From: an uncultured Alphaproteobacteria bacterium
GTDB lineage: Bacteria > Pseudomonadota > Alphaproteobacteria > HIMB59
Direction of reading: 5' to 3'
DNA: 64,000 nucleotides
Assembly: GCA_902610175.1 (NCBI GenBank)
Contig: CACLUR010000003.1
Span: 62,001 to 126,000 of the forward strand
This document shows, piece by piece, positions 5,666-62,490 of the stretch (positions within the stretch are counted from its first letter, which is position 1; each line of letters starts with the position of its first letter). A program made the translations under genes and the position numbers. A model generated the notes under the pieces. The model made no database searches. It was not told where the DNA came from and worked only from the letters and a program-made list of their open reading frames with translations.

Positions 5666-6199
5666 ATGATCAGGCTGTTGCTTTTGTTTCTAATACTCCC
5701 ATTTACTGCATATTCTGATAAACATATTCCATATTATAAATCCCTAGCTCATGATCAGTCGTGGTTACGTCACTATCCAGAAAATCAAGATTTGAACAAA
5801 CAAACAGAGAAGTTTCTCCTCACAGAGAAAAATATGCCTGTAAAGGTTATTGAAGAGTTTAGAAATACTTGGAGTTCTTATACAGATTGGTACCGCATTG
5901 AATTGTTTAATGGAATACAAGGTTGGATTGCTCACAATCAGTTATCTAAAAAAAGAACTTTGCTGATACTGGAGGATATTGAGCTGTATGCATTGAAATC
6001 TTATGACCCTGAGTCTTGGATGACTATTCAAAAAGGAGTAATACTTGCACCAAAAATTGTAAACTTGTTAGAAGTAAAAGAAAAAATGGTGAAAATAAGT
6101 ATACCTGAGGGCAATAAATCCTCTGTAAAAGGATGGATACCCATAGATGATAGATTATGGGGTTTCTCTAGTAATGAAACGCAAATTTTAAATGATTAA
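5666..6199 (+). CDS. Exported SH3-domain protein
   Basis: Secreted or periplasmic protein of unknown role with two SH3b-like units. The chosen ATG at 5666, six bases after the betA stop, gives a clean signal peptide (MIRLLLLFLILPFTAYS); an in-frame TTG at 5639 would put nine polar residues in front and overlap betA. The mature part holds the pattern VKVIEEF...WYRIELFNGIQGWIAHNQL followed by a second, weaker copy ending in GWIPIDD, as in alphaproteobacterial SH3 proteins that accompany envelope functions. Length 177 residues. The next gene overlaps its 3' end by 8 bp, suggesting co-expression. Confidence 0.7.
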   Translation: MIRLLLLFLILPFTAYSDKHIPYYKSLAHDQSWLRHYPENQDLNKQTEKFLLTEKNMPVKVIEEFRNTWSSYTDWYRIELFNGIQGWIAHNQLSKKRTLLILEDIELYALKSYDPESWMTIQKGVILAPKIVNLLEVKEKMVKISIPEGNKSSVKGWIPIDDRLWGFSSNETQILND

Positions 6200-6737
6200 A
6201 TACTTACTATTTATATTGCTCGTGATACAAGACTTGATGGCATATAATGAATCCCCTTATAAAGTAGTTCATCAGACAGATACTTATGAAATTAGATTTT
6301 ATGAGGAGCGTCTATTAGTTCAAACCCAATACACTAATCAAAATAATGGATTTCGAAAACTTTTTAATTATATTTCTGGCAACAATAAAAAAAGTGAAAA
6401 AATTGCAATGACCACACCAGTGAATGTTACTCAAATTGAAAATGAGTACATTATGCAATTTTATTTACCAAATAAATACAAACCAAATGAAATACCTTTG
6501 CCATCAGATAATTCAGTAATAATTTCTTCAATTGAAGCAGGTTATTTTGCAGTAATTAGATATTCTGGTTTTGCTTCCGATAAAAATTTTTATAAACATC
6601 GAGAGGTTTTAAAAAATAAGTTAAATACTGATAATATTGAAGTTATTGGACCTGCTATTAAAGCTACTTATGATGGCCCTTTTACATTGCCTAATCTTCG
6701 AAGAAATGAAGCTATTTTTCAAGTTGACTGGAAGTAG
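6192..6737 (+). CDS. SOUL-family heme-binding protein, exported
   Basis: Member of the SOUL/HBP family, small beta-barrel proteins that bind heme or other tetrapyrroles. Visible hallmarks are YKVVHQTDTYEIRFYE near the N-terminus (usual form YxVxxxxxxYEIRxYxP), FRKLFNYISGNN, and KIAMTTPV, which is almost invariant in the family. A hydrophobic leader (MIKYLLFILLVIQDLMA) indicates export. The 181 residues are full length for a bacterial SOUL protein. It overlaps the SH3 gene. Physiological role in bacteria is unsettled; heme buffering is only a family-based guess. Confidence 0.85.
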   Translation: MIKYLLFILLVIQDLMAYNESPYKVVHQTDTYEIRFYEERLLVQTQYTNQNNGFRKLFNYISGNNKKSEKIAMTTPVNVTQIENEYIMQFYLPNKYKPNEIPLPSDNSVIISSIEAGYFAVIRYSGFASDKNFYKHREVLKNKLNTDNIEVIGPAIKATYDGPFTLPNLRRNEAIFQVDWK

Positions 6738-6919
6738 ACCCTTTGATTTTTAGTAGAAGCTCAAATAATTTTTTAGACTCAAATACTAATAGACATTGAT
6801 TCTATTGCCCTATCTTTAGATATTCACTGGATGCATAGTTAAATTAACTTCTTAGCATTATTTTTTTTGTGAATCTGTAACTATAAGTCATGTATTACTC
6901 AAAATATAGAGAGGTATTT

Positions 6920-7261
6920 ATGAAACTAATAACAGCTATTATCAAGCCCGACAAGGTTGAAGCTTTGAGACAGGCACTAACAGGTGTCGATATACAAGGT
7001 TTAACTATTGTTGAGGCCAAAGGATATGGGCGCCAAAAGGGTCATACCGAACTGTACCGAGGCGCAGAATATGAGGTACATTTTCTTCCTAAATCTCGAG
7101 CTGAGATTTTAGTGGACTCTGCAGACGTCGAAAAAGTCATTACTACAGTTTCTGAAGCAGTAAAATCAGGGAAAATTGGTGATGGTAAAATATTTGTAAC
7201 TGAGGTGCAAGATGTTGTCCGAATACGTACAGGAGAACGAGGCGCTGAGGCAATAAAATAA
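6920..7261 (+). CDS. glnK: Nitrogen regulatory protein PII (GlnK)
   Basis: Trimeric PII signal protein that senses 2-oxoglutarate, ATP and ADP and plugs the ammonium channel. The ATG at 6920 preceded by GAGGTATTT gives 113 residues, the standard size; an in-frame ATG at 6890 would add ten residues that no PII carries. The T-loop GRQKGHTELYRGAEY is intact with the uridylylation site Tyr51, and the C-terminal RIRTGERG motif is present. The gene is 9 bp upstream of amtB, the classic glnK-amtB operon. I see no convincing NtrC or sigma-54 site in the 180 bp before it. Confidence 0.96.
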   Translation: MKLITAIIKPDKVEALRQALTGVDIQGLTIVEAKGYGRQKGHTELYRGAEYEVHFLPKSRAEILVDSADVEKVITTVSEAVKSGKIGDGKIFVTEVQDVVRIRTGERGAEAIK

Positions 7262-7270
7262 GGAGATCGT

Positions 7271-8551
7271 ATGAAAAAAATATTAACTTTTTTAATCCCT
7301 ACTTTGCTTCTCTCTGGAGTTGCAAGTGCAGAGGTTTCCGCTGAAACAGCTTTTGTATTCAATACATTTTTATTTGTTTTTAGTGGAGTCTTAGTGATGT
7401 TCATGGCATTAGGTTTTTCCATGTTAGAAGCAGGATTTGTTCGTAAAAAAAACACATCGGCAATTTTACTTAAGAATATAGCTTTATATTCAGTAGCCGG
7501 AATAATGTTTTATCTAATAGGTTACAGCTTAATGTATGTAGATGTCTCAGGTTGGATAGGCTCACTAAGTGGTGCGTTTTATGATACAGCTGATGATTTG
7601 ACAGTTGCTACAGAAGAGGGTGGATACTCTTTAGCATCAGATTGGTTTTTCCAAATGGTTTTCTGTGCAACAGCTATTTCGATTGTATCTGGTGCATGTG
7701 CTGAAAGAATAAAAGTATGGCCATTTATTATATTTGCTGCTTTTATGACAGGAGTCATTTACCCAATATATGGTTCATGGACTTGGGGCGGCGGATGGCT
7801 AACTGAAATGGGCTTTTCTGATTTTGCTGGTTCGACAATTGTTCACTCAGTTGGTGGATGGGCAGCTTTAACCGGATGTTTAATCCTTGGTCCTAGAGCT
7901 GGCAAATATGGTTCTGATGGAAAAATAACTCCAATCGCAGGTGCAAATATGCCTTTAGCTTGTCTAGGCACTTTTATCCTTTGGTTTGGATGGTTTGGAT
8001 TTAATGGTGGGTCACAGCTAGCTCTTGGAAGTGCTGCTGATGCTTCTGCTATGTCAATTGTGGTCGTTAATACCAATATCGCTGCATGCGGCGGTGTTGT
8101 AGCAGCAATAATTCTATCACAGCTAATGTATAAGAAGATTGATTTATCAATTGCGTTAAATGGTGCCATTGCTGGTCTTGTTGCAATTACAGCTGGTCCT
8201 GATTTAAGTAACCATTTCTTATCTATGATTGTTGGTGCTATTGGTGGTATCCTTTGTACAATTGCTATCCCGATGCTCGATAAAATGAAAATCGATGATG
8301 TTGTGGGAGCGATTTCTGCTCACTTAGTTGCAGGTATATGGGGAACTTTGGCTGTAGGTATCTTTGGAAGTGGAGATTTCTTGGTCCAATTGATCGGTAT
8401 CGTGGCTGCTGGTGTATTGGTTGTGCCTTTAAGTGGCGTTTTCTTTTACATTCTAAAAGGAACAATTGGCTTAAGAGTGTCTGAAGAGACGGAAGCTTCA
8501 GGTCTTGATAAAGCTGAATTGACAACAGAAGCTTACCCAGAATTTAAATAA
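7271..8551 (+). CDS. amtB: Ammonium transporter AmtB
   Basis: Trimeric inner-membrane channel for ammonium. A signal peptide (ending VASA around residue 20) precedes eleven hydrophobic helices. The pore-lining twin histidines are present: His192 in STIVHSVGGWAAL and a second in ISAHLVAGIWG near residue 350. The Amt signature DFAGSTIVH is intact. Length 426 is normal. It follows glnK with an AGGAG ribosome site and is closed by a strong terminator at 8571-8602. High-affinity nitrogen uptake is expected in oligotrophic plankton. Confidence 0.96.
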   Translation: MKKILTFLIPTLLLSGVASAEVSAETAFVFNTFLFVFSGVLVMFMALGFSMLEAGFVRKKNTSAILLKNIALYSVAGIMFYLIGYSLMYVDVSGWIGSLSGAFYDTADDLTVATEEGGYSLASDWFFQMVFCATAISIVSGACAERIKVWPFIIFAAFMTGVIYPIYGSWTWGGGWLTEMGFSDFAGSTIVHSVGGWAALTGCLILGPRAGKYGSDGKITPIAGANMPLACLGTFILWFGWFGFNGGSQLALGSAADASAMSIVVVNTNIAACGGVVAAIILSQLMYKKIDLSIALNGAIAGLVAITAGPDLSNHFLSMIVGAIGGILCTIAIPMLDKMKIDDVVGAISAHLVAGIWGTLAVGIFGSGDFLVQLIGIVAAGVLVVPLSGVFFYILKGTIGLRVSEETEASGLDKAELTTEAYPEFK

Positions 8552-8570
8552 TCTTATTTATAGTACTCCT

Positions 8571-8602
8571 AAAAAAGGGGCACATTATGTGCCCCTTTTT
8601 TT
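8571..8602. terminator. Bidirectional intrinsic terminator between amtB and gpx
   Basis: AAAAAA, then GGGGCACA-TTA-TGTGCCCC, then a run of seven T. The 8-bp GC-rich stem with A tract on one side and T tract on the other works for both strands and ends the convergent amtB and glutathione peroxidase transcripts. The right T tract touches the gpx stop codon. Confidence 0.9.
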
Positions 8603-9125
8603 ATATTAACTCATCAATCAAACTTGTAATTTTTGAACTGTCAGGTTTGGTCATAGAGGACCAACTTTTAACTAATTGACCTTCTGCATCAAAGAGATAC
8701 TTATAAAAATTCCATTTAGGAGTTTCATTATACTCTGATGTCATCCAACTGTATATTGGATGGGCATTTTCACCAACAACACTGATAATTTCTGATATAA
8801 TAAATTTGGTTTCATAATTAACTAAACAAAATTCTTTAACTTCCTCATTATTACTTAGCTCTTGATGAAAACTATCAGAAGGAGTTCCAATAATTACTAA
8901 ATTCTTTTCAAAATACTCACGATGAAGATTGGATAGATTAGCGTATTGTTTTGTGAAACCACATCTACTAGCCGTATTTACAAGAAGAATGGGTTTACCT
9001 TTAAATTTATCAAGATTAACTGTATTTCCATCAATATCTTGAATACTAAAGTTATATAAGTTTTTCGCCATAATGCTCCCTATGCTTGTGAGTAAAATAC
9101 TCAAAGTTATCAAGAAAATTCTCAT
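8601..9125 (-). CDS. Glutathione peroxidase family protein, exported
   Basis: Thiol peroxidase of the GPx family that reduces peroxides with thioredoxin or glutathione. The leader MRIFLITLSILLTSIGSIMA directs export. The peroxidatic Cys55 sits in TASRCGFT, and WNFYKYL holds the active-site Trp/Asn region. The usual FGGQEP loop is altered to TPSDSFHQEL, keeping a Gln but not the double Gly. A second Cys near 99 (EFCLVNYE) may be the resolving Cys. It is the last gene of the minus-strand osmolyte run, 40 bp after the HD-oxygenase gene. Confidence 0.85.
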   Translation of the reverse strand: MRIFLITLSILLTSIGSIMAKNLYNFSIQDIDGNTVNLDKFKGKPILLVNTASRCGFTKQYANLSNLHREYFEKNLVIIGTPSDSFHQELSNNEEVKEFCLVNYETKFIISEIISVVGENAHPIYSWMTSEYNETPKWNFYKYLFDAEGQLVKSWSSMTKPDSSKITSLIDELI

Positions 9126-9165
9126 GACAATATATACTTACTTAAAATTATATGGATTTATAGAT

Positions 9166-9771
9166 TTAAACTTTTGGTAAACCTATAACTTCATCTTTTT
9201 TGATGTATTCATCTTTGTAGGGAGGTCTGCTAAATACCTCTTTAATCATAGGTTTAAAAAAATCTAGATCTTTATTTTCATATTCGGGATCAAAAGATTT
9301 TTGATCCCATCTTTCACAAAAATCTGCACAAGTTTGGAAATAAATATTATCTTTAAATTTATCTCTAGCATTTTTATCCCATCCATAATGATGAGCATAG
9401 TAGATCATTTGAAAAATTCCATGATGCTCAATCACCCATGTTATTTCATCTCTTACATAAGGTCTTATAACTTCAGCAGAAAACCTATCGTGATTTTGAG
9501 GGGCAAGTCCATCTCCAATATCATGAAGTAAGGCACCAACAATCCAATCAATGTCAGCTCCATCATTATAAGCTCTAGTAGCTGATTGGAGACCATGATC
9601 TAATCTTGTTATCTTGTAACCCTCCATAGTATTTTTTCCTTGTCTTGTAAGCTCTTCAATTATTCTTTCATATGTCAAAGAAACATACTTTTCCTCATAT
9701 TTTTGGAGCAATTGATAATCCTCTTTATCTCCATCTTTCATATGTTTAAATTTTACATTTTTCTCAGTCAT
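9166..9771 (-). CDS. HD-domain oxygenase, TmpB/PhnZ-like (phosphonate C-P cleavage)
   Basis: HD-fold protein likely to be a mixed-valent di-iron oxygenase of the PhnZ/TmpB type, which cleaves the C-P bond of a 1-hydroxyphosphonate made by a partner 2-oxoglutarate oxygenase. Seen: possible metal ligands His59 (RLDHGLQ), His83-Asp84 (LLHDIGDG), His116/117 (EHHGIF) and Asp150 in a 201-residue protein; His59-x-HD spacing resembles PhnZ. It overlaps the upstream TmpA-like gene as ATGA, so the two are coupled. In TmpAB the pair turns trimethylaminoethylphosphonate into glycine betaine and phosphate. The assignment rests on family resemblance plus pairing; substrate is inferred. Confidence 0.65.
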   Translation of the reverse strand: MTEKNVKFKHMKDGDKEDYQLLQKYEEKYVSLTYERIIEELTRQGKNTMEGYKITRLDHGLQSATRAYNDGADIDWIVGALLHDIGDGLAPQNHDRFSAEVIRPYVRDEITWVIEHHGIFQMIYYAHHYGWDKNARDKFKDNIYFQTCADFCERWDQKSFDPEYENKDLDFFKPMIKEVFSRPPYKDEYIKKDEVIGLPKV

Positions 9772-10892
9772 AAATTTGTATCACTTAAATTATATTTTTC
9801 ATGTAAATGTCTCAATTTTCCATCAGTTGAATCAAATTCTAGATAACAACCTTGTAAATGTCTAGCTCCCTCACTCGAGTCATAAGAGGTTCTTCCATGG
9901 AGAAGTCTGTGGTTATCAAACATCATGACATCTCCTGGTGAGAGCTTAAATTTTATCTCGAAGTCAGATGAAGTGTATAAATCTCCTAATAATTTTCTCG
10001 CTTTGTAAAAACTCTCTAATTTTTCATTTTCTAAAGGTGGCACGTAATCAACTCTAGTACTATACCTGACTTGTTTATAGTCGCCATCCTTGTCTAATTC
10101 AATTAACTCTCCCCAATTTTCTAAAATTATATCTTTATCTTGAAATCGGTAACGTAAATTTGTTTTGGTTAAAGACTCAAATGCTTCTGGCTCATTTAAT
10201 TTAATATACTCTGCAACTGAAAAACCATCAACAAGAGTAGAAAAACCACCACTTACTTCATTTTTTAAACAGTGCAAGAACTGTATCCCAGGTGCTTCTG
10301 GTTTTCTGTAAGGGTTATCAGTATGTGGCGGTAATGCAATAGGTTTATAGGCTAAGTCATTTGGATTTGGTTTAGACATTACATCAAAAAATTCTCCAAA
10401 ATTTGTGACCTTAATTGGGCCTATTGAATTTACAAATTTTAATAAATACTTACTTTCAGTTGGTACGTTTTTAATAATAACAAATCCATATTTATAAAAA
10501 TCCATAAGAAGATTATACATGGACTTTTTTTCAACCATATTTTCTTCAAAAACAGCCTGAGGTATAACTTCTAGTTGAGAATTCCATAAAATTCTTTTTG
10601 GTAAGGGTCCTCTTTTATTTTTTTCTTCATCCATTTCGATCAAAAGATCATTTAAACGATATTGACCTTTTGCCCCATCATTAAATTCAACATCAAGTTT
10701 GTGATCAGATAAATTGCAACTTATAATTTTCAATTTTAGGTCAATAGAGGATGGCTCGTATAATCTTTGATTAGTATCTAAATCAAAATACTTTTTACCC
10801 GGTAGTCTTTCTCTTAACCAAATGGGATGCAAATGAAATGTCTTATTTTGATGAATTATCTTAATAGTATTGTTTTCAAAATGAAAATCCAT
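9768..10892 (-). CDS. GBBH-like Fe/2-oxoglutarate oxygenase, TmpA-like
   Basis: Non-heme iron, 2-oxoglutarate-dependent hydroxylase with the gamma-butyrobetaine hydroxylase architecture: an N-terminal DUF971-like domain (about 1-95) and a TauD/TfdA domain (about 125-370). The facial triad is His190, Asp192 and His332 (PPHTDNPYR; RLLHGRTSY), and Arg344 is placed to bind 2-oxoglutarate. GBBH enzymes usually have zinc-binding cysteines after WLRD; here WLRERLPGKKYFDLD has none. The overlap with an HD-oxygenase gene argues for TmpA (hydroxylating a trimethylammonio-phosphonate) rather than carnitine synthesis. A role on another betaine is possible. Confidence 0.7.
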   Translation of the reverse strand: MDFHFENNTIKIIHQNKTFHLHPIWLRERLPGKKYFDLDTNQRLYEPSSIDLKLKIISCNLSDHKLDVEFNDGAKGQYRLNDLLIEMDEEKNKRGPLPKRILWNSQLEVIPQAVFEENMVEKKSMYNLLMDFYKYGFVIIKNVPTESKYLLKFVNSIGPIKVTNFGEFFDVMSKPNPNDLAYKPIALPPHTDNPYRKPEAPGIQFLHCLKNEVSGGFSTLVDGFSVAEYIKLNEPEAFESLTKTNLRYRFQDKDIILENWGELIELDKDGDYKQVRYSTRVDYVPPLENEKLESFYKARKLLGDLYTSSDFEIKFKLSPGDVMMFDNHRLLHGRTSYDSSEGARHLQGCYLEFDSTDGKLRHLHEKYNLSDTNL

Positions 10893-10957
10893 AATTCAAA
10901 TTCCAAGTATTAATAATTAAATATTTTGCTAAATTTAATTAATTGTCAATTAAGAAA

Positions 10958-11419
10958 TTAACTCTTGATTTTAAAAATTGCCTCAATTTCTACTGTAAAA
11001 CCTAGAGGTAAAGAATTAACTCCTACTGCAGCTCGAGCATGAACACCAGTCTCACCAAAAATTTCTTTCATCATATTCGAACAACCATTGATTACTAAAG
11101 GCTGCTGTGTGAAGCTCTCAATACAATTTACAAAACCTGTCAGTTTTATTAATTGATCTACTTTATTAATTGATCCTATTTCATTTTTTAAAGCAGATAA
11201 GATAGCTAATCCACATAGCCTTGCATGATTTTGAGCTGTCTCTAAATCAACATCAGCCCCAACTTTTCCTTTTGCAAAAGACCCATCCTCAAGTAATGGG
11301 CCTTGACCAGAAATATATGCAATATTATCAACAATAACGCAGGGTTTATAACTCCCTGCAGGTTTGGCAGGTTTTGGTATTAAAAGACCTAATTCAGCTA
11401 TCTTGGCTTCGAAATCCAT
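10958..11419 (-). CDS. RidA/YjgF-family protein
   Basis: Small trimeric enamine/imine deaminase family protein, 153 residues from the ATG at 11419 (a TTG one codon earlier is also in frame). It has the RidA pattern KPAGSYKPCVIVDNIAYISGQ near the N-terminus, the central GLAILSALK helix and the C-terminal ARAAVGVNSLPLGFTVEIEA. The usual RidA Arg near the end is present in the ARAAVGV stretch. It lies 65 bp before the TmpA-like gene and 11 bp after the MFS gene in the same run, so it may clear a reactive imine formed in the pathway; that is inference. Confidence 0.8.
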   Translation of the reverse strand: MDFEAKIAELGLLIPKPAKPAGSYKPCVIVDNIAYISGQGPLLEDGSFAKGKVGADVDLETAQNHARLCGLAILSALKNEIGSINKVDQLIKLTGFVNCIESFTQQPLVINGCSNMMKEIFGETGVHARAAVGVNSLPLGFTVEIEAIFKIKS

Positions 11420-11430
11420 CAATTAAAAAA

Positions 11431-12684
11431 TTACTCTTTTTCATCAATTTTACTAATCATTTGTTCAGTAGCAGTTTGCATTCCTATTGCGGAAGCGGTG
11501 CGAGGCACAATCATTGACGGTGTATTTTCATCATAAATTTCACTAGTTCTTCCAACTTTTACTCTTTGATAGGTAAATAGTGCCAGAAAAACGTAAACTA
11601 TTGCACAATAATAAAACAATCCATAGGCATCAAAATAAGTCATAAATCCAGAGACGATAATTGGACCTAAAACTAAACCTAATGCATTAACTAATGTCAG
11701 AGTTGAGCTAGCAGAAACAACCTCATCCTTTTCTAAAAAATCATTGAGATGAGAAATAACAACAGCATAGTAAGGAAGAGATACAGCTGAATGTATTCCA
11801 ACAAATAATAAAAGAATATTAAATGAAAAAGATCCGAATATAATTACACAAATAGATGAAACCAAAGCAATGATATTTAATATCAGTAAAATTATTCTTC
11901 TATCAAATGTATCCGATAGTTTACCAACCGGATACTGAAATAAAGCTCCAATGAAAGTATTTACGAAAACAATTATAGAAATTTGAAAAATACTTAAGCC
12001 TAACTTAGCTCCAAAGACTGCAATTAATCCAAATGATGCTCCATATATCATACCAATACCAAAAGAACCTATAAAAGACATGGGAGAATTTTTATATAGA
12101 TCTTTTAAAGATATGAACTTAGGTGTAGAAAATTCTGGTGCTGATTTTTTAGTAAGCAAAATTGGAACTAGAGCAAAAGAAATTAATAAAGATGTTAGAA
12201 TATATAAGTGTGCCTCAGTAGTCTCTTTTAGATTTATTAGTAAACCACCCCCACTAGTTGAGAAGTATAATATCACCATGTAAAACCCAATAAGCTTCCC
12301 CCTTGTTTTATTATCAGCTCGATCATTTAGCCAACTTTCACAAACGATATATATAGCTGCCAATGAAAACCCTGTAAGTAATCTTAAAAAAAACCAAAAA
12401 TACGGATGAATATAAATCCAATGAAATAATATCGTAATGGAAGCAATGGATGCAAATGCTGCAAATACTCTTATATGTCCTACATTTTTGATAATTTTAG
12501 GACAAATATATGAGCTTGCTAAATAGCCTATAAAATAACCTGTAAAGACATATCCAATTTCAAAATCAGAAAAATTAAATAATACGGCATTAATATTTAA
12601 CAAGGTTCCTTGCAAAGAATGTGCAAGCATAATAAATCCAAACCCTGTAAATAAAGCCCAAGAACTATAAACGATATTTAACAC
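11431..12684 (-). CDS. MFS transporter, YcaD-like
   Basis: Twelve-helix major facilitator carrier of 417 residues. The pattern GYVFTGYFIGYLASSY, then FLRLLTGFSLAAIYIVCESWLND, is typical of the YcaD group of uncharacterised MFS proteins; YPVGKLSDTFDRR between helices 8 and 9 is the repeat of the MFS loop motif. A GTG start is used. It sits inside the osmolyte run between dmdA (38 bp upstream) and ridA, which makes uptake or efflux of a methylated compound, phosphonate or product plausible, but nothing in the protein proves the substrate. Confidence 0.8.
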   Translation of the reverse strand: MLNIVYSSWALFTGFGFIMLAHSLQGTLLNINAVLFNFSDFEIGYVFTGYFIGYLASSYICPKIIKNVGHIRVFAAFASIASITILFHWIYIHPYFWFFLRLLTGFSLAAIYIVCESWLNDRADNKTRGKLIGFYMVILYFSTSGGGLLINLKETTEAHLYILTSLLISFALVPILLTKKSAPEFSTPKFISLKDLYKNSPMSFIGSFGIGMIYGASFGLIAVFGAKLGLSIFQISIIVFVNTFIGALFQYPVGKLSDTFDRRIILLILNIIALVSSICVIIFGSFSFNILLLFVGIHSAVSLPYYAVVISHLNDFLEKDEVVSASSTLTLVNALGLVLGPIIVSGFMTYFDAYGLFYYCAIVYVFLALFTYQRVKVGRTSEIYDENTPSMIVPRTASAIGMQTATEQMISKIDEKE

Positions 12685-12722
12685 CCGAGACTATTTAAAC
12701 TTTTAGTTTAAAAAAGCAATTA

Positions 12723-13826
12723 TTATTTATTGAAAGGGAGGTTCGTCATTACAGACTCAACCTCTTTGCCATCAACAAGAAGTGTATGTTTTTTTTCTAA
12801 ACTTTGATATTGGGTTTGAACCATAGCTATTCCAAGACAACAGCCAAAATCTGGACTAAAGCATGCAGCCCTTAGCTCACCTATTACGTCAGTACCAATT
12901 TTTAAAGGTAACGCTTTTGTAATTTCAATTTTATCCAGTTTCAATTTCAAACCAATCAGAGACCTCTTGACTCCCTCTTTGTGCTGCTTTTCTAATTCAG
13001 CTTTTCCTAAATAATTTATTTTGGGATTGAAAGAAACAAAAGAACCTAAACCACACTCAAGTGGAGTATCATTCATGTTCATATCATTTCCAAAAGATAA
13101 TAAACCACCCTCTATCCTTTCAATTAAATTTGGACAACCTGGTCTTACATCCAAATCTTCACCTTTAGACATAAGGGCATCAAAAAGATTTAGGCCGATT
13201 TCATCATGATCTACGTAAATTTCAAATCCACCCTGTTTGGACCAACCTGATCTGGCAATTAAAAATTTATGATTTTGAAAATCAAATCTTTTGAAGTTGA
13301 AAAATTTTAATTTATCTATGTCTTTGAACACTCTTGACATAAGCTCAAATGATTTTGGTCCTTGAACGGCAAGAATGTTAACATTGGGTTCAGTAATCTC
13401 AACGTCAAGGTTCATACCAATTGCAATTCCTTTTGCATAAAGAAGCACATCTGTATCAGCTATTGATAGCCACCATGTGTTTTCACCAACTTTCATTATC
13501 AGTGGATCATTAATAATTCTACCTTTGTTATCAACAATTGGAGCATAATAGCAAAGATAATCTTTTGCCTCAGATAAATCTCTACACGTAATTAATTGTG
13601 TAAGTTTAGCTGCATCAGGTCCTTGAATTTGAACTTGTCTCTCGCCAGATACATCCCAAAGTTGAACATTCTTTTTTAGGTGCCTACTATCTTCCTCTAT
13701 GCCTTTAAAAGACGCAGGTAAAAGCATGTGATTATAAACTGTGTATGATTGAACACCATATTCCTCTATTCTTTTGGTGTAAGGGGTACAGCGAAGTCTC
13801 GCACTTTTAGCAATTAAGTGGGTCAT
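12723..13826 (-). CDS. dmdA: DMSP demethylase DmdA
   Basis: GcvT-fold enzyme that transfers a methyl group from dimethylsulfoniopropionate to tetrahydrofolate, giving methylmercaptopropionate. From the ATG at 13826 (a TTG three codons earlier is less likely) it is 367 residues, the SAR11 DmdA length. Recognised stretches are AYTVYNHMLLP-like at 27-37, DVSGERQVQI at 58-67, WWLSIADTDV and SGWSKQGG at 193-200; the last replaces the GYTGEDG motif of true GcvT. The overall match to the Pelagibacter enzyme, as I recall it, is strong. No dmdBCD genes are in view. It lies downstream of a betaine-type ABC importer and yeiH on the same strand. Confidence 0.87.
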   Translation of the reverse strand: MTHLIAKSARLRCTPYTKRIEEYGVQSYTVYNHMLLPASFKGIEEDSRHLKKNVQLWDVSGERQVQIQGPDAAKLTQLITCRDLSEAKDYLCYYAPIVDNKGRIINDPLIMKVGENTWWLSIADTDVLLYAKGIAIGMNLDVEITEPNVNILAVQGPKSFELMSRVFKDIDKLKFFNFKRFDFQNHKFLIARSGWSKQGGFEIYVDHDEIGLNLFDALMSKGEDLDVRPGCPNLIERIEGGLLSFGNDMNMNDTPLECGLGSFVSFNPKINYLGKAELEKQHKEGVKRSLIGLKLKLDKIEITKALPLKIGTDVIGELRAACFSPDFGCCLGIAMVQTQYQSLEKKHTLLVDGKEVESVMTNLPFNK

Positions 13827-13878
13827 GAAATTCAATGTAGTTAATATGTATTCTTTCTACAAAGCAATGATATTATTT

Positions 13879-14937
13879 CTATAAGACATTTAGCCCTAAA
13901 ATAAATATTAGGAGGGTTACTGATACAAGGGATACTAAGCTAAAAGTCATACCAATTAATAGAGCAGCATACCCCTGATTAAAGATTTTTCTTAAATCAA
14001 TAGAGGCTCCAAGAGCTGTAAGAGCTAGGCCAAATAATATTGAAATTATTTCTTCAAGCATAACTAAAAAATGCATCCAATTCTCATTATCAAAAAAGTA
14101 TAAGTCCATAATTGAGCGAAAGGTTACAAATAAAATAAAACCTATTACAAAAAGTGGAATTGAATTAAATATTTTAACAAAGACTGATTGGCTTTTATTT
14201 TTATTATTTTTTGAACTTTTATTAAATATTATTAATATCGGTATCAAAGCTAAAAGAAATAAATTTCTGATTATTTTTGTTATCGTAGCGATTTCTAAAG
14301 TTTTTAGATTTGGATGTAAATCATTATGAACCATGGCAGCTGCTAAAACTTGACTTGTGTCATGAATACTAACACCTAAAAAAATACCTTTAGCTATGTC
14401 TGTTAAAAAAAATAACTCCACAAAAAAAGGATATGTAAATATAGCTATACTTCCCCATAAAACTACTACTAGCACAGCCACAGCTACATCTTGATCTTTT
14501 GATTTTAAAATTGATGAGGAGGCTAAAATAGCTGTAACACCACAAATGGATGTGCCAATTGCCAATAATTTTGATATACCTTTTTGAGTTGGCCAAATTT
14601 TTTTTATTAAAATATATGTCAGAAAAATAAATATTATTGTTATTATTATTACAAATATAGACTCAATACTGACTCTCCATAACTGAGCCAAACTTATCTT
14701 TATACCCAATAAGATAATTGCTAATTGAAGTATATTTTTCTTAATAAATTCTCGACCTTCAACAATATTAGAAGATAAAGAAAATATATTAAAAAAAAAT
14801 ATTCCCAAAATCAGGGATAAAAGACTCAATGGTAATAAATGTAAATTAAAGACATATTCTAAGGGTTGCTTTAAAAATATTGCTAGTAGATAAATAAAAG
14901 TTATGAAAAATACACCTATTAGACTTTTATTTAACAT
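13879..14937 (-). CDS. YeiH-family putative sulfate/sulfonate exporter
   Basis: Polytopic membrane protein of the PSE/YeiH family (Cons_hypoth698), 352 residues with about ten helices. Diagnostic motifs are GTSICGVTAILASS, VVVLWGSIAIFTYPF, and GVSIHDTSQVLAAAM, all hallmarks of the family, plus the late ALTALGASIDLRKI. The family is annotated as putative sulfate exporters, with little direct proof. Its place 52 bp upstream of dmdA and 60 bp after proW suggests removal of an oxidised sulfur product of DMSP breakdown, or transport of an organosulfur anion; this is inference from position. Confidence 0.82.
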   Translation of the reverse strand: MLNKSLIGVFFITFIYLLAIFLKQPLEYVFNLHLLPLSLLSLILGIFFFNIFSLSSNIVEGREFIKKNILQLAIILLGIKISLAQLWRVSIESIFVIIITIIFIFLTYILIKKIWPTQKGISKLLAIGTSICGVTAILASSSILKSKDQDVAVAVLVVVLWGSIAIFTYPFFVELFFLTDIAKGIFLGVSIHDTSQVLAAAMVHNDLHPNLKTLEIATITKIIRNLFLLALIPILIIFNKSSKNNKNKSQSVFVKIFNSIPLFVIGFILFVTFRSIMDLYFFDNENWMHFLVMLEEIISILFGLALTALGASIDLRKIFNQGYAALLIGMTFSLVSLVSVTLLIFILGLNVL

Positions 14938-14997
14938 ATTGATTAATTAATTAAATGTAAGCTAAAGATTTTATTTTGCTATGACTTAATTTCTAAT

Positions 14998-15891
14998 TTA
15001 CTCTCTTGCACCACTTCTATGTTGTTGAATTCGGTGTCCAAAAGATTGAGAGACTCTGTCAAAAATAATTGCCAAAGCAACTATCGCCAAACCATTAAAT
15101 AGACCCATTGCAAAATATTGATTTGTAATGGCTTTTAAAACTGGTTGCCCTAGACCTTTGACACCAATCATAGATGCAATAACAACCATCGCTAGTGCCA
15201 TCATTATAGTTTGGTTTATTCCAGCAAAAATTGTTGGAAGGGCCAAAGGTAGCTGAATTTGAAATAATTTTTGTCTAGGATTAGCACCAAAAGCATCTGC
15301 CGCCTCTAAAACTTCACTATCAACTTCTCTTATTCCCAAATTAGTAAGTCTTATAATAGGAGGTATTGCATATATAACCACTGCTAATAAACCTGGTATT
15401 TTACCAATACCTAATAACATAACGACAGGTATCAAGTACACAAAGCTTGGCATCGTCTGCATAACGTCTAAAATTGGAGTACAGATCCTTTGAGCGCGCT
15501 CTGATTTTGCCATCAGCACGCCAACCGGAATACCAATACCTATAGATAGTAGGGTGCAAACACCAATAATACTCACAGTTGACATGGTGTCTTCCCACAT
15601 TCCAAAAATTCCAATTAAAAGAAAAGCAAATAAAGAACCTATAGTTACTGATATTTTTCTGCTACCAAAATAAATTATTGCTAAAAAACAAATTAGAACC
15701 AAAGGCCAAGGTGAATTTTGTAATAATTTTTCAAACCAGACTAAAAAATATAGCACCGGATCAAAAACTGCCTCAATAGTATCACCATATTCTCTTGAAA
15801 AAGCCCTGTAAGAAGTGTCAAAACCCTTTTTAATAAAACGAAGAGTTTCTCGACTTAATTCAGGAAATTCTGATAAAAAAAACTTTTCCAT
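14998..15891 (-). CDS. proW: Glycine betaine/proline-type ABC importer, permease ProW
   Basis: Inner-membrane subunit of a ProVWX/Opu-type importer. The 297-residue protein has an N-terminal amphipathic part, then about six helices with the binding-protein-dependent transport motif EAADAFGANPRQKLFQIQLPLALPTI-type loop that contacts ProV. The start MEKFFLSEFPEL matches the short ProW form (E. coli ProW has a longer N-terminus). The last gene of proV-proX-proW; a perfect 10-bp hairpin lies between proX and it. Substrate class betaine, proline betaine, choline or DMSP; dmdA nearby makes DMSP attractive. Confidence 0.9.
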   Translation of the reverse strand: MEKFFLSEFPELSRETLRFIKKGFDTSYRAFSREYGDTIEAVFDPVLYFLVWFEKLLQNSPWPLVLICFLAIIYFGSRKISVTIGSLFAFLLIGIFGMWEDTMSTVSIIGVCTLLSIGIGIPVGVLMAKSERAQRICTPILDVMQTMPSFVYLIPVVMLLGIGKIPGLLAVVIYAIPPIIRLTNLGIREVDSEVLEAADAFGANPRQKLFQIQLPLALPTIFAGINQTIMMALAMVVIASMIGVKGLGQPVLKAITNQYFAMGLFNGLAIVALAIIFDRVSQSFGHRIQQHRSGARE

Positions 15892-15912
15892 AAAATTTTA
15901 GCAGTAAAATTT

Positions 15913-15936
15913 AGAAGTGGGCAAAAGCCCACTTCT
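15913..15936 (-). repeat. Intercistronic stem-loop between proX and proW
   Basis: AGAAGTGGGC-AAAA-GCCCACTTCT is a perfect 10-bp stem with a 4-base loop, placed 16 bases after the proX stop. On the transcribed strand it is followed by AAATTTTAC rather than a long T run, so it looks like a 3' stabiliser or partial terminator that favours proX mRNA over proW, not a full stop. Confidence 0.8.
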
Positions 15937-15952
15937 TAGATAAAAATAATTA

Positions 15953-16942
15953 TTATAGTGCGTTTAGAACGTCTAATTGAGCATCAAAAGGTACCCAGCT
16001 TTTCCACTGACCGTAGTTTTGTAGAAAATAGACTGCAGTATCTTCACCAGATGCCTGATTATCATCTTTCCATGCTAATAGTTCGTTTACAACTGAGTTA
16101 GGTAATGCTCTCTTAGAGATATAATCCATTCCTGGTCCAGTTGAATTTTTGAAGTTATCTGTAACGACTGTAAACACAGAAGAAACAACCCATGAATTCT
16201 TCTGAGGATCAGCACAACCTTCTTGAGAGGTACAAGTACTCCACTCGTCAAAGTCATGAGGTACTCCAAAGTCAAGTTTTTTCATTGGATACTTTCCTAA
16301 AATTGCTGTTGGTGCCCAGTAATAACCAAGCCAACCCTCGCCTTTTTCATATGCTTCAGCGATAGAACCAGCAAGAGCTCCACCTGAGCCAGGATCTACA
16401 AGGTTAAATCCTTTTCCTTCACCGTCATAAGCTTGGAAGAGGTTACCAGTACTAATTTGGCAGTTCCAACCTGATGGACATGTATAAAGAGCAGCACCAT
16501 CACCCTCTGGGTGAGGGAATAAATCAGGTCTTGCTAAAGCATCTTCGACAGTTACGATATCAGGATTAGCATCAGCTAAGTACTGAGGTATCCACCATCC
16601 TTCTTCACCTGTATCAGATAAAACTTCAGCAGCATAGTGAAGTCTTCCTTCAGCAGTAGCTGCGTCTAATGCGATACGAACAGAATTGATCCATAATTCT
16701 GGAGCAATATCAGGCTCGCCTTTTTCCATCATTGATGTAGCAGTAGGCATTGTATCTCCAGGAACAAGCTCAACATCACATCCATAAGCATTTTCTAATA
16801 TTAATTTGTCAACGTGGGCAAACATTTCGGCGGATGCCCAGTTCATTTCAGCGATTGTGATTGTCCCACAATCAGCTTTTGCTACTGAGTTAATTCCAAA
16901 TAATAGAACTGAGCTCAGAAGTATTTTTTTAATAGAGTTCAT
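15953..16942 (-). CDS. proX: Glycine betaine/proline-type ABC importer, binding protein ProX
   Basis: Periplasmic substrate-binding protein (OpuAC/ProX family). The ATG at 16942 has an excellent GGGAGGATG ribosome site and opens a signal peptide (MNSIKKILLSSVLLFGINSVAKA); an in-frame start at 16990 would hide it. The mature protein begins DCGTITIAEMNWASAE, as in ProX, and is rich in Trp/Tyr around WWIPQYL, GWLGYYWAPTAIL and WKSWVPF, suitable for a cation-pi box for quaternary amines or sulfonium. Length 329. It is unusual in lying between proV and proW instead of last. Confidence 0.9.
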   Translation of the reverse strand: MNSIKKILLSSVLLFGINSVAKADCGTITIAEMNWASAEMFAHVDKLILENAYGCDVELVPGDTMPTATSMMEKGEPDIAPELWINSVRIALDAATAEGRLHYAAEVLSDTGEEGWWIPQYLADANPDIVTVEDALARPDLFPHPEGDGAALYTCPSGWNCQISTGNLFQAYDGEGKGFNLVDPGSGGALAGSIAEAYEKGEGWLGYYWAPTAILGKYPMKKLDFGVPHDFDEWSTCTSQEGCADPQKNSWVVSSVFTVVTDNFKNSTGPGMDYISKRALPNSVVNELLAWKDDNQASGEDTAVYFLQNYGQWKSWVPFDAQLDVLNAL

Positions 16943-17057
16943 TACATCCTCCCTGATATAAAAGTCTAAGATAACATTCCTATATTGCATTAATAGTGAA
17001 AAAATCTTAAAAAATGGAAGCTAATTGCCGCAAAAAAATAGAAAATTGTTTATTTTG

Positions 17058-18080
17058 CTATCTTTTTAGTATTTCAGATAGTCTTTTTGTTGATAAATAA
17101 CCTATTTCATCATTATTTTTATTTTTAACTATAAGGCAATTTGGCTTATCAGAAATAACTTTGTCAATAAATCTATCGATAAAATCATCTTGATCTACAA
17201 ACATAGCGTTATCTCTGTCTTGTCCATTTAATTTTGACATAATGTGTTTTGCTTTAATTACCCTAGCTCTGTTTACGTCCTCGACAAAATCTTTTACATA
17301 TTGTGTCTTTGGACTTAATAAAATATCTGCGGGGATACCTTCTTGATCCATTATACCATCTTTTAATATTGCAATACGATCTCCAATTTTTAAAGCTTCA
17401 TCAAGGTCATGAGTAATAAATACAACTGTTTTGTGAAGTTCATCTTGAAGCTCAAGAAGAATATCTTGCATATCTTTTCTTATTAACGGATCTAAGGCGC
17501 TAAAAGCCTCATCCATTAATAAAATTTCACCATCGTTAGTAAGAGCTCTAGCGAGACCAACACGTTGTTGCATTCCCCCAGATAAATGTTGAGGGTATCT
17601 TTCTTCATACCCTGATAATCCTACACGATCAATCCATCTTCGTGCCCTAGTATTTGCCTCTTTTTCATCAATATTTTGAATATGAAGACCAAACAGTGTA
17701 TTTTCTAAAACCGTCTTATGAGGCAACAAAGCAAAACGCTGGAATACCATAGCAGTTTTTGCTCTTCTGAAATTTCTTAAACTTTCATCATTCATTTTTA
17801 AAACATCTTCACCATCAACAACTACGCTGCCGTCTGTAGGTTCTATTAATCTATTTATATGTCTTATTAATGTTGACTTGCCTGAACCAGAAAGGCCCAT
17901 TACAACTTGAATTGACTTCTCGTTGATGTCCAAATTGATATCTTTTAAACCAAGAACATGATTATGTTTTTCTAAAAGTTCATCTTTATTAACCCCATTT
18001 TTTACTTGCTCTAACGCAGACCTCGGGTTTTTACCAAAAATTTTATATAAGTTTTTAATTTGAATTTTTATTTCAGACAT
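17058..18080 (-). CDS. proV: Glycine betaine/proline-type ABC importer, ATPase ProV
   Basis: Cytoplasmic ATPase of the importer. Walker A GLSGSGKST at 62-70, Q-loop in VFQRFALLPHKTV, signature LSGGMQQR, Walker B ILLMDEAFSALDP and the H-loop ITHDLDEAL are all intact. The N-terminal extension with IYKIFG-like LYKIFGKNP is typical of ProV. After the ATPase core only about 75 residues remain, holding roughly one CBS-like unit instead of the two found in E. coli ProV (400 residues), so ionic-strength gating may differ. First gene of proVXW, 118 bp after cysE. Confidence 0.92.
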   Translation of the reverse strand: MSEIKIQIKNLYKIFGKNPRSALEQVKNGVNKDELLEKHNHVLGLKDINLDINEKSIQVVMGLSGSGKSTLIRHINRLIEPTDGSVVVDGEDVLKMNDESLRNFRRAKTAMVFQRFALLPHKTVLENTLFGLHIQNIDEKEANTRARRWIDRVGLSGYEERYPQHLSGGMQQRVGLARALTNDGEILLMDEAFSALDPLIRKDMQDILLELQDELHKTVVFITHDLDEALKIGDRIAILKDGIMDQEGIPADILLSPKTQYVKDFVEDVNRARVIKAKHIMSKLNGQDRDNAMFVDQDDFIDRFIDKVISDKPNCLIVKNKNNDEIGYLSTKRLSEILKR

Positions 18081-18198: not shown

Positions 18199-18783
18199 TT
18201 ACTTTTTTGTAACTGCATATGGTGCAAAAGTATTATCTGTTTTTTTGGATTTAGATTGAATATTTTTTGCAGGTATACCAACCATTATTCCCCCTTTTGG
18301 GACATTTTTTGTTACAACAGCATTAGATCCAATTCGAGCGCAACTTTTTATAATTATTGGTCCTAATATCTGTGCTCCAGAACCAACAATCACATCGTCT
18401 TCAAGAGTGGGATGACGTTTCACACCAACTTGTTCTGATGATTTAACAGCAGGCATGATACCTCCCAATGTGACACCGTGATAGATAGTTACATTATCTC
18501 CTATTTCAGCAGTTTCTCCAATAACAACTCCCATTCCATGATCAATAAAAAAATTTTTTCCAATTTTGGCTGCAGGATGAATTTCAATACCAGTTAAAAA
18601 TCTTGATAATTGTGAGATCATTCTTCCTAATAATTTCAAATTTAGTGACCAGATAAAATTTGCTATGCGATGGAAGAAAACAGCTTTCACACCAGGATAG
18701 GTTAATATCACTAGTAACAATGAAGTTGCAGCAGGATCTCTTGCCTTCACTGACTCAAAATATTTCATTAAATTTTCAAACAT
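18199..18783 (-). CDS. cysE: Serine O-acetyltransferase CysE
   Basis: Acetyl-CoA-dependent acetylation of serine to O-acetylserine, the first step of cysteine synthesis. The 194-residue protein is the short EpsC-like form: an N-terminal helical part ([20 protein letters not shown]) and a left-handed beta-helix with hexapeptide repeats ([35 protein letters not shown]), His in DHGMGVV and HGVTLGG being the family active-site residues. The C-terminus lacks the long regulatory tail. Standing just before proVXW-yeiH-dmdA it adds a sulfur-assimilation link. Confidence 0.9.
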
Positions 18784-61015: not shown

Positions 61016-62490
61016 TTAAGTTCAAAATTTTTAAAATCATCATAAGTAAGATATACATTTAATTGATTTTTAGGAATAAATTTAGAAATTTGAAGATACG
61101 TTTGACCAGGTCCACACGAATTACGCTTATTTAGTATTTCTGGTCTTAGTTGTATAGCTAATTTAAATGCAGAGAAGCTCATCCAATAAAAACTCTCCGC
61201 TACAAACAAATTATCAATCGTATTGTCATTAATCAATGGGACTAAACTATAGTGTGATATAACAGGGAATTTTTTATTTAGCATATTTCCTTCATATGTA
61301 AGTTTATAAGTAGGTTTTTGATTATCTTTATAAAAATTTTCAGTTTCTCGATAATTTTCACCAAAACTATCGAGAGAAGAATTTACAAGAATGCCCATTT
61401 TACTTATTTTTTTCCAAGAACTTACGCCGGAAGTTATAAGATTTGATACACTTTTCAAAGATTTAAACTCTTTAAATTCTGATCTTGTGGCCAAAACATT
61501 TTTATTTTTTACTGTTTTATTAAATTCATGCAAATTTCTCTGAAACATTTGATATTTTGATAAGCTTGAAGGAAATATATTTTTAACTTTTTTAACTTTT
61601 TTATTATTTAGATATTTTTTTTCTTTAAAATATTTTTTTGTTTGATTATCTTTCCCTTGTGCAAATAAGATTTTTTCATTTAGAATATTTTCAATAGTTA
61701 CACCTACATCTAAATTGCAACCACCTCCCCATTTGTATAAATATTTTCTCTCTCTTTGACAATCATCTAACGAAGGTAAATGATTAATTTTTTTCAATAT
61801 TTTTTCTGTTTTTCGATCATCTCTCCTATATTCCAAAGCAATGCATCCTTGTGCTGCCGCACTAGGAAATTCAGAAATTGGTAAAATTATTTTCTCAAAC
61901 TTTTTAAATTTCAATTTAAAATTTCTATAATCTTTTTTATTAATTTTTTCTCCATATTTAAAAATTCTATCTATAGCAGCTTTAGCCATAAACACCCCGT
62001 CCTCTTTTGAGGAATTTAATATTTTTTCCAGCCTAGATGGTACGTTTCCCCTAATGTCGAATGGCTTCAATTCTTCAAAGGGTAAAAACTTTCTTAATTT
62101 TTTTAAATAATATTTTCTTCTAGGAGAGGATGTCCCTACAACTAATTTTTTTTTATTTAATGAAGTCTTTTTAATAAGAATAACATCTCTTGGATCATCT
62201 CTTTTGAGACAAATAAAAGAAGTCTTATTAAGATTTTTAACAGGAAGATCTTTGAATGAATGAACTACCACATCTGCATCTTTTAAGATTAATTTTTTTG
62301 ATAGTGAATTTGTAAATATTCCAAATCCATGTTGTTCCCAAGCTTTAGCTGACATGTCCGTGTCACCAACACTTGATGAGTAATGTGTATCAATTATATT
62401 TTTTTGTATTTTATTAATTTCTATTTCCGCAATGTGAGTCTGAATTTTAGCGAGAAAACTTTTTCTTGATAATAAAACAATCTTTTTCAT
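61012..62490 (-). CDS. hemC: Porphobilinogen deaminase with long C-terminal extension (HemC, possible HemD-like)
   Basis: Polymerises four porphobilinogen units to hydroxymethylbilane. The ATG at 62490 is preferred (492 residues). Residues 1 to about 300 are HemC: VVHSFKDLP near 77-85, GTSSPRRKYYL, PFDIRGNVPSRLEK, SAAAQGCIALE and WGGGCNLDVG with the dipyrromethane cofactor Cys near 258. The remaining 190 residues, beginning VLATRSEFKEF, hold WKKISKMGILVN and SCGPGQTYLQI, and could be a diverged uroporphyrinogen-III synthase (HemD) domain, for which no separate gene is in view. Lys-rich and AT-rich. First gene of the heme operon. Confidence 0.85.
   Translation of the reverse strand: MKKIVLLSRKSFLAKIQTHIAEIEINKIQKNIIDTHYSSSVGDTDMSAKAWEQHGFGIFTNSLSKKLILKDADVVVHSFKDLPVKNLNKTSFICLKRDDPRDVILIKKTSLNKKKLVVGTSSPRRKYYLKKLRKFLPFEELKPFDIRGNVPSRLEKILNSSKEDGVFMAKAAIDRIFKYGEKINKKDYRNFKLKFKKFEKIILPISEFPSAAAQGCIALEYRRDDRKTEKILKKINHLPSLDDCQRERKYLYKWGGGCNLDVGVTIENILNEKILFAQGKDNQTKKYFKEKKYLNNKKVKKVKNIFPSSLSKYQMFQRNLHEFNKTVKNKNVLATRSEFKEFKSLKSVSNLITSGVSSWKKISKMGILVNSSLDSFGENYRETENFYKDNQKPTYKLTYEGNMLNKKFPVISHYSLVPLINDNTIDNLFVAESFYWMSFSAFKLAIQLRPEILNKRNSCGPGQTYLQISKFIPKNQLNVYLTYDDFKNFELK

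Follow-up and report, generated by a model that had tools for sequence, protein, structure and literature searches.

A locus for probable dimethylsulfoniopropionate uptake and demethylation beside a putative hydroxylase/HD-oxygenase module in an HIMB59-type alphaproteobacterium

Introduction

The ATP-binding cassette (ABC) importer DmpXWV, described from Ruegeria and Pelagibacter HTCC7211, is specific for dimethylsulfoniopropionate (DMSP) in its characterised members, the structure of its binding protein RnDmpX has been solved with DMSP, and its genes lie apart from the known genes of DMSP catabolism (PMC10030565). TmpA and TmpB of Leisingera caerulea, a hydroxylase dependent on iron and 2-oxoglutarate (Fe/2OG) followed by a small HD-domain diiron protein, convert trimethylaminoethylphosphonate to glycine betaine and phosphate, and PhnY and PhnZ follow the same logic of a hydroxylase joined to an HD oxygenase. 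With MIOX, PhnZ and TmpB make up the three HD-domain oxygenases known to a 2020 review, which describes an H-HD-H-H-D diiron motif and a YxxE loop that serves the substrate in PhnZ and TmpB (PMC8177086). Here we describe relatives of both kinds of system within one gene run in a 64,000-nucleotide stretch (hereafter the window; contig CACLUR010000003.1, contig 3 of an assembly of 1.385 Mb, positions 62,001 to 126,000) from an uncultured bacterium of HIMB59, an order (HIMB59/AEGEAN-169) in which two families have been named (PMC10734472). Our reading, tentative and somewhat short of an even chance, is that genes for the uptake and demethylation of DMSP, an algal compound, here adjoin a new module of a hydroxylase and an HD oxygenase, which would act on an onium compound bearing an ammonium group.

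The run comprises eleven minus-strand open reading frames (ORFs) in the order cysE-V-X-W-yeiH-dmdA-MFS-ridA-tmpA'-HD-gpx, where V, X and W encode the importer and tmpA' is the TmpA-like gene. A first-pass annotation of the window had given the same genes in this order as a co-transcribable run, and both points are upheld, with spacing between 118 bp (cysE/ATPase) and a 4-bp overlap (TmpA-like/HD). Pfam and NCBIfam agree on the broad families of the genes; among the specific NCBIfam assignments, DmdA alone exceeds its curated equivalog cut-off. Comparisons were made with 60 relatives covering the window's genus and its sister family, mostly incomplete single-cell genomes, with 148 genomes of Pelagibacteraceae, and with a class-level sample of 289 alphaproteobacterial genomes; protein functions were assigned by homology, several neighbouring genes in the relatives' loci were named by eye from sequence, and genomes and loci are cited, where needed, by G and L handles.

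Genes for probable DMSP import and for DMSP demethylation

The importer genes, ordered V-X-W in the window and X-W-V in relatives, encode an ATPase of the ProV/ChoV family (17058..18080, minus strand like all genes of the run; 338 bits on the proV subfamily model TIGR01186, cut-off 326.6), a binding protein (15953..16990) and a permease (14998..15891, PF00528) whose best NCBIfam models, ProW at 268 bits and choline permease at 262 bits, are each matched under cut-off. The ProX profile match of the binding protein is very weak (20 versus 215 bits); its sole PDB match is 7yle (E 3.8e-74), which is taken to be the RnDmpX/DMSP structure of PMC10030565. It is 43% identical to RnDmpX and retains seven of eight pocket residues (Trp35, Thr64, Trp84, Glu113, Trp152, Tyr200 and Trp202, with Ala153 replaced by Asn), including the essential Tyr200, whose loss abolished DMSP binding in RnDmpX (PMC10030565). 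Given the 7yle match, the conserved pocket and the retained tyrosine, the importer is probably DmpXWV, a DMSP importer rather than a general betaine importer, and the assignment of DMSP as its substrate is strong. The linked ABC importer for onium compounds proposed in the first-pass annotation therefore remains, and the general betaine (ProVXW) type gives way to DmpXWV. Whereas published dmpXWV genes are unlinked to catabolic genes, the window importer, with its ATPase and permease alongside, directly precedes yeiH-dmdA and lies one gene from dmdA.

The dmdA gene itself (12723..13835) encodes a near full-length match to the DMSP demethylase model NF009133, its 483 bits exceeding the curated cut-off of 410 and supporting the earlier call; the protein also matches PDB entry 3tfh (E 5e-126), which is listed as a GcvT-like aminomethyltransferase and is the SAR11 DmdA. 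Only the neighbourhood of this dmdA stands out. Between importer and demethylase lies a YeiH-family membrane protein (13879..14937; PF03601 189.5 bits, and 116 bits on TIGR00698, cut-off 233), a possible sulfur anion exporter, whose gene appears split into two ORFs in the close relative G016 (L039/L164), a possible frameshift or decay.

Other genomes of the genus also carry dmpXWV upstream of dmdA, with 42-53% identical binding proteins and with genes for an aldehyde dehydrogenase, an M19 dipeptidase, a 551-aa protein and a DUF3726 protein in between. The last three, of which the 551-aa protein has no Pfam match, are found upstream of dmdA at L063:5517-8736 (plus strand) and in L076 around 6000-9460; sister-family genomes, too, have relatives of the dipeptidase and the 551-aa protein next to dmdA, and a search of the genome to which the window belongs gave no match to the 551-aa gene. 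G012 has a DddP-like M24 gene (L064:3990-5270, minus strand; 360 bits, cut-off 600) that adjoins dmdA in divergent orientation. A second DmdA-like paralogue (L063:18657-19796, minus strand; also L040-L042, L044, L066 and L067), 34-36% identical to the window DmdA and scoring 387 bits against the DmdA cut-off of 410, adjoins glnK-amtB in several relatives and is absent from the window.

A TmpA-group hydroxylase and an HD protein related to TmpB and PhnZ

Downstream of dmdA, tmpA' (9768..10892) encodes a D-type member of the Fe/2OG hydroxylase group of TmpA, BBOX and trimethyllysine hydroxylase (TMLH), which scores 335 bits on the TmpA model NF049936 (equivalog cut-off 400) and 197 bits on the TMLD model (cut-off 268); the predicted structure is closest to TmpA (6npb, E 8e-33), with BBOX second. 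The H-D-H iron-binding facial triad and the 2OG-binding Arg are present, as is an onium-binding aromatic cage (F-F-Y-Y). At N187, N287 and R288, the phosphonate ligands of TmpA (PMC9296572), the protein has Asp179, Thr and Arg280, and nearly all orthologues have Asp, then T/G/P/S, then R/K; the exceptions are L074 in the sister family, with Asn at the first position, and the distant relative L161, which retains the second Asn. BBOX Asn191 aligns with TmpA N187, and the Asp of tmpA' is aligned with TMLH Asp231, the residue homologous to BBOX Asn191 that is thought to bind the alpha-ammonium of the substrate (PMC7764450). A maximum-likelihood tree places TmpA and BBOX, both long branches, outside the D-type clade (support 99/96). 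The likeness to TMLH, in this Asp and the aromatic cage, has its limits, in that tmpA' is nearer TmpA in overall sequence, differs at the position of TMLH N334, and has an HD or enolase-superfamily enzyme as the partner seen, with no aldolase. Elsewhere in the window's own genome, a BBOX-like gene 32% identical to tmpA' directly follows a carnitine-dehydrogenase-like gene (L080, G000:C2:139700-141800).

The adjacent HD gene (9166..9771) encodes a predicted diiron oxygenase with metal ligands H59, H83, D84, H94, H117 and D156, invariant in an alignment of 35 sequences, in which the YxxE loop is missing: the window protein has MxxY, and the position varies across the family. It scores 27.7 bits on the TmpB profile (cut-off 300; 48 residues aligned) and 39.9 bits, over a partial match, on the Phn-HD model TIGR03276 (cut-off 214.6; 37-40 bits overall), aligning with TmpB and PhnZ mainly across the first HD part. 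The predicted structure (pLDDT 96) has the PhnZ/TmpB fold, and these two are its only significant Foldseek matches (E 5e-6 to 3e-5, TM about 0.6); a MIOX-type assignment, suggested by a C-terminal motif, was set aside at a Foldseek E of 1.1. Most sister-family genomes carry genuine Phn-HD genes (about 200 bits, slightly under cut-off) as genes of their own, and a search of the window's genus found none. From the lost YxxE loop, the low scores and these separate genes, the HD protein is by sequence a family related to but distinct from TmpB and PhnZ, present in 82 of the 289 class-level genomes; that it is an oxygenase we hold with moderate confidence. Compared with PhnY/PhnZ, the logic of hydroxylase and HD oxygenase and the PhnZ fold are shared, whereas the HD family and the hydroxylase subfamily differ.

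Pairing and exchange of partners across genomes

Among the 148 Pelagibacteraceae genomes, 52 hold both tmpA' and HD, three HD only, two tmpA' only and 91 neither, so that 52 of 57 carriers have the two together (Fisher 1e-33, without correction for kinship, which inflates the value); genera g228 and g229 each include genomes with both genes and genomes with neither. In the main genus of this family the genes are separated by tens of kilobases or fall on different contigs; they are direct neighbours in four distant class-level genomes (L132, L133, L136 and L139) and in six Pelagibacteraceae genomes, which represent three genera. The pair is genuine. Elsewhere HD is coupled to PhyH-type hydroxylases (L122, with a 4-bp overlap, L127 and L130) and to Rieske enzymes (L150 and L151), which makes a hydroxylase with HD a recurring pattern. 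Loci of distant Alphaproteobacteria (L122:1920-3400, L127, L130, L148 and L150) show PhyH-type genes adjoining HD, or tandem HD-HD copies with Rieske genes. One SAR11 stretch (L178:3004-10737) holds a PhnZ/TmpB-type HD gene with YxxE, a dimethylglycine-dehydrogenase-like gene, the tmpA'-HD pair and a BHMT-like gene, and relatives of the window's major facilitator superfamily (MFS) transporter (36-40%) occur near HD genes in SAR11 loci L178, L196 and L131.

In seven genomes of the window's genus HD is missing and an MR_MLE enolase-superfamily gene (MR) is present instead (for example L063:13365-14513). Loci of six of the seven were read, and in each MR takes the place of HD, with tmpA' on one side and gpx on the other; the nearest solved relative of the MR protein is 4jhm. 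Each of the 29 tmpA' carriers in the genus has exactly one partner (HD in 22, MR in seven, with G014 counted on a partial tmpA' match beside its MR gene), and the eight non-carriers have neither. The tree requires at least two partner changes, and in G021 the segment from dmdA to tmpA' (13878-9817) is 94% identical to the window while HD is replaced and gpx and yeiH fall to 73% and 68%. Enolase-superfamily enzymes act on carboxylates through alpha-proton abstraction; if MR and HD share a substrate, it would therefore be a carboxylate with an alpha-hydrogen, a description ill-suited to a hydroxyphosphonate.

Linkage to dmdA and flanking genes

Within the genus, the order dmdA-MFS-ridA-tmpA' is retained wherever loci were read, the distance from dmdA to tmpA' is about 2.9 kb in all 27 genomes holding dmdA, and dmdA never occurs without tmpA'. 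In the sister family, the neighbours of tmpA' are either sugar genes or an agmatinase-like gene, and those of HD are 4HBT-BKACE-carnitine-dehydrogenase-like genes. A guanidino substrate was considered from the agmatinase-like gene before tmpA' in two of these genomes (L069 and L070), an arrangement that is not conserved; a general link between HD and carnitine genes, suggested by L047-L054, did not hold across the class.

The two genes between dmdA and tmpA' encode the YcaD-like MFS transporter (11431..12684, PF07690) and a protein (10958..11422) that clearly belongs to the RidA/YjgF superfamily (PF14588 68.6 bits, PF01042 52.6 bits), with 40 bits on TIGR00004 (cut-off 106). At the downstream end, gpx (8601..9125; PF00255 107 bits) encodes a glutathione-peroxidase-like thiol peroxidase with a signal-like N-terminus, and wherever same-genus loci were read its neighbour is HD or MR. 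The gpx/amtB junction (window 8551-8601; L055, L063 and L168) has differing inserted genes in relatives and is likely a recombination point. At the other end, cysE (18199..18783), serine acetyltransferase-like by translation, lies just beyond the interval 8601-18080 of the first-pass annotation and is a doubtful member of the run, its upstream position being taken by other genes in relatives.

Proposed pathway and alternatives

In the pathway that we propose, DmpXWV would import DMSP, DmdA would pass one of its methyl groups to tetrahydrofolate, leaving methylmercaptopropionate, and YeiH may export a sulfur anion. The substrate of the tmpA' enzyme would be a zwitterionic onium compound with an ammonium group as well, such as a trimethyllysine-like or S-methylmethionine-like amino acid, and its hydroxylation would give a beta-hydroxylated onium amino acid; the HD protein, through a mixed-valent diiron site, would oxidatively cleave the C-C bond at the new carbinol, much as PhnZ and TmpB cleave C-P bonds. 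The nitrogen-bearing fragment would leave as an imine and be hydrolysed by the RidA homologue; in some relatives the enolase-superfamily enzyme would take the second step, plausibly a dehydration to an enamine that RidA would clear. As both routes would leave an imine or enamine, the constant presence of a RidA homologue in the genus would be explained. Our confidence in the substrate class, the C-C cleavage and the imine chemistry is weak. Several observations weigh against this proposal: the TmpA score of tmpA' exceeds its TMLD score, TMLH N334 has no evident counterpart in the tmpA' clade, where the aligned position is T/G/P/S, and the retained TmpA Arg288 could still bind an anion. In addition, the sister family has dmdA, tmpA' and HD at separate places or on separate contigs, SAR11 likewise shows no linkage between dmdA and the module, and no RidA gene was found beside tmpA' or HD in the loci read outside the genus. 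The DMSP link may for this reason be local; a joint function with DMSP use is plausible only as a genus-specific trait, the linkage being constant in the genus and absent in the sister family. The claim of the first-pass annotation that the run is one unit, which it proposed to check by the order dmdA-MFS-ridA-tmpA-tmpB in relatives, accordingly stands within the genus for the block from dmdA to tmpA', with HD sometimes exchanged, and fails in the sister family.

That annotation had also read tmpA' and HD as a true TmpAB pair splitting the C-P bond of trimethylaminoethylphosphonate into glycine betaine and phosphate, which we consider very improbable. Among characterised relatives tmpA' does score best with TmpA, the fold of HD is that of PhnZ and TmpB, the two folds come from adjacent genes as in Leisingera, and in L178 the pair lies near BHMT and dimethylglycine-dehydrogenase-like genes, potential users of glycine betaine. 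What survives is a TmpA-superfamily hydroxylase beside an HD protein: tmpA' falls short of TmpA proper in score, nearly all orthologues have substitutions at two of the three phosphonate ligands, with Asp at N187, and the HD protein belongs to another family than TmpB, without YxxE and far below the Phn-HD scores of the genuine genes. L178 carries both HD kinds side by side within 3 kb, HD can be replaced by an enolase-superfamily enzyme, and a Pho-box scan found no match near the run, nor was any other phosphonate context found for the window pair. A reading of HD as an ordinary metal-dependent phosphohydrolase, like most known members of its superfamily (PMC8177086), is quite unlikely too, in view of the invariant six-residue diiron set, of PhnZ and TmpB as sole significant fold matches, and of its repeated pairing with O2-dependent hydroxylases.

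The main rival, unlikely in our estimate, is that the substrate of the module is DMSP, or a short betaine close to it such as beta-alanine betaine: tmpA' would hydroxylate the carbon beside the carboxylate, after which HD would oxidatively remove the carboxylate to give dimethylsulfonioacetate or glycine betaine, or the enolase-superfamily enzyme would eliminate dimethyl sulfide or trimethylamine to give pyruvate. The linkage to dmdA in 27 of 27 genomes beside DmpXWV, the aromatic cage kept for the onium head and the fit of a carboxylate to the enolase superfamily favour it, whereas Asp179, at that end of the pocket, would tend to push a carboxylate away, there would be no need for RidA, and genomes outside the genus show no linkage of the module to dmdA. 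It is a serious possibility, although well under an even chance, that the DMSP genes and the module are unrelated units with separate substrates joined by recombination, a view compatible with the other readings of the module. The two are unlinked in the sister family and SAR11, the flanks of the dmdA-tmpA' block recombine and the upstream genes vary; yet the 4.06-kb dmdA-MFS-ridA-tmpA' block is intact at 94% identity in G021 with both flanks exchanged, and every genome of the genus that has dmdA also has tmpA'. The preferred reading of an ammonium-bearing substrate extends to a broader claim, which as a whole is rather doubtful: Pelagibacteraceae and bacteria of the HIMB59 type would widely share a new oxidative pathway, with a D-type hydroxylase and a new family of HD diiron oxygenases that would cleave a C-C rather than a C-P bond of an onium amino acid and with an unrelated enolase-superfamily enzyme that could take the second step, so that near-identical genomes would apply two chemistries to one hydroxylated intermediate.

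Implications

Our literature search found no description of a dmdA-dioxygenase-MFS locus, of tmpA-like genes in SAR11 or of HIMB59 DMSP genes matching this locus. The dmpXWV-yeiH-dmdA linkage supplies a co-location of transporter and demethylase not found in the DmpXWV paper (PMC10030565), and the alternation of HD and enolase-superfamily enzymes in one slot offers a built-in test of the tmpA' product. If the proposal is true, HD would be a further family of HD oxygenases beyond MIOX, PhnZ and TmpB, co-inherited with a specific hydroxylase in SAR11, where the pair is common and whose members are among the most abundant marine bacteria, and the module would reveal a route, so far unrecognised, for the use of a methylated nitrogen or sulfur osmolyte by very abundant ocean bacteria.

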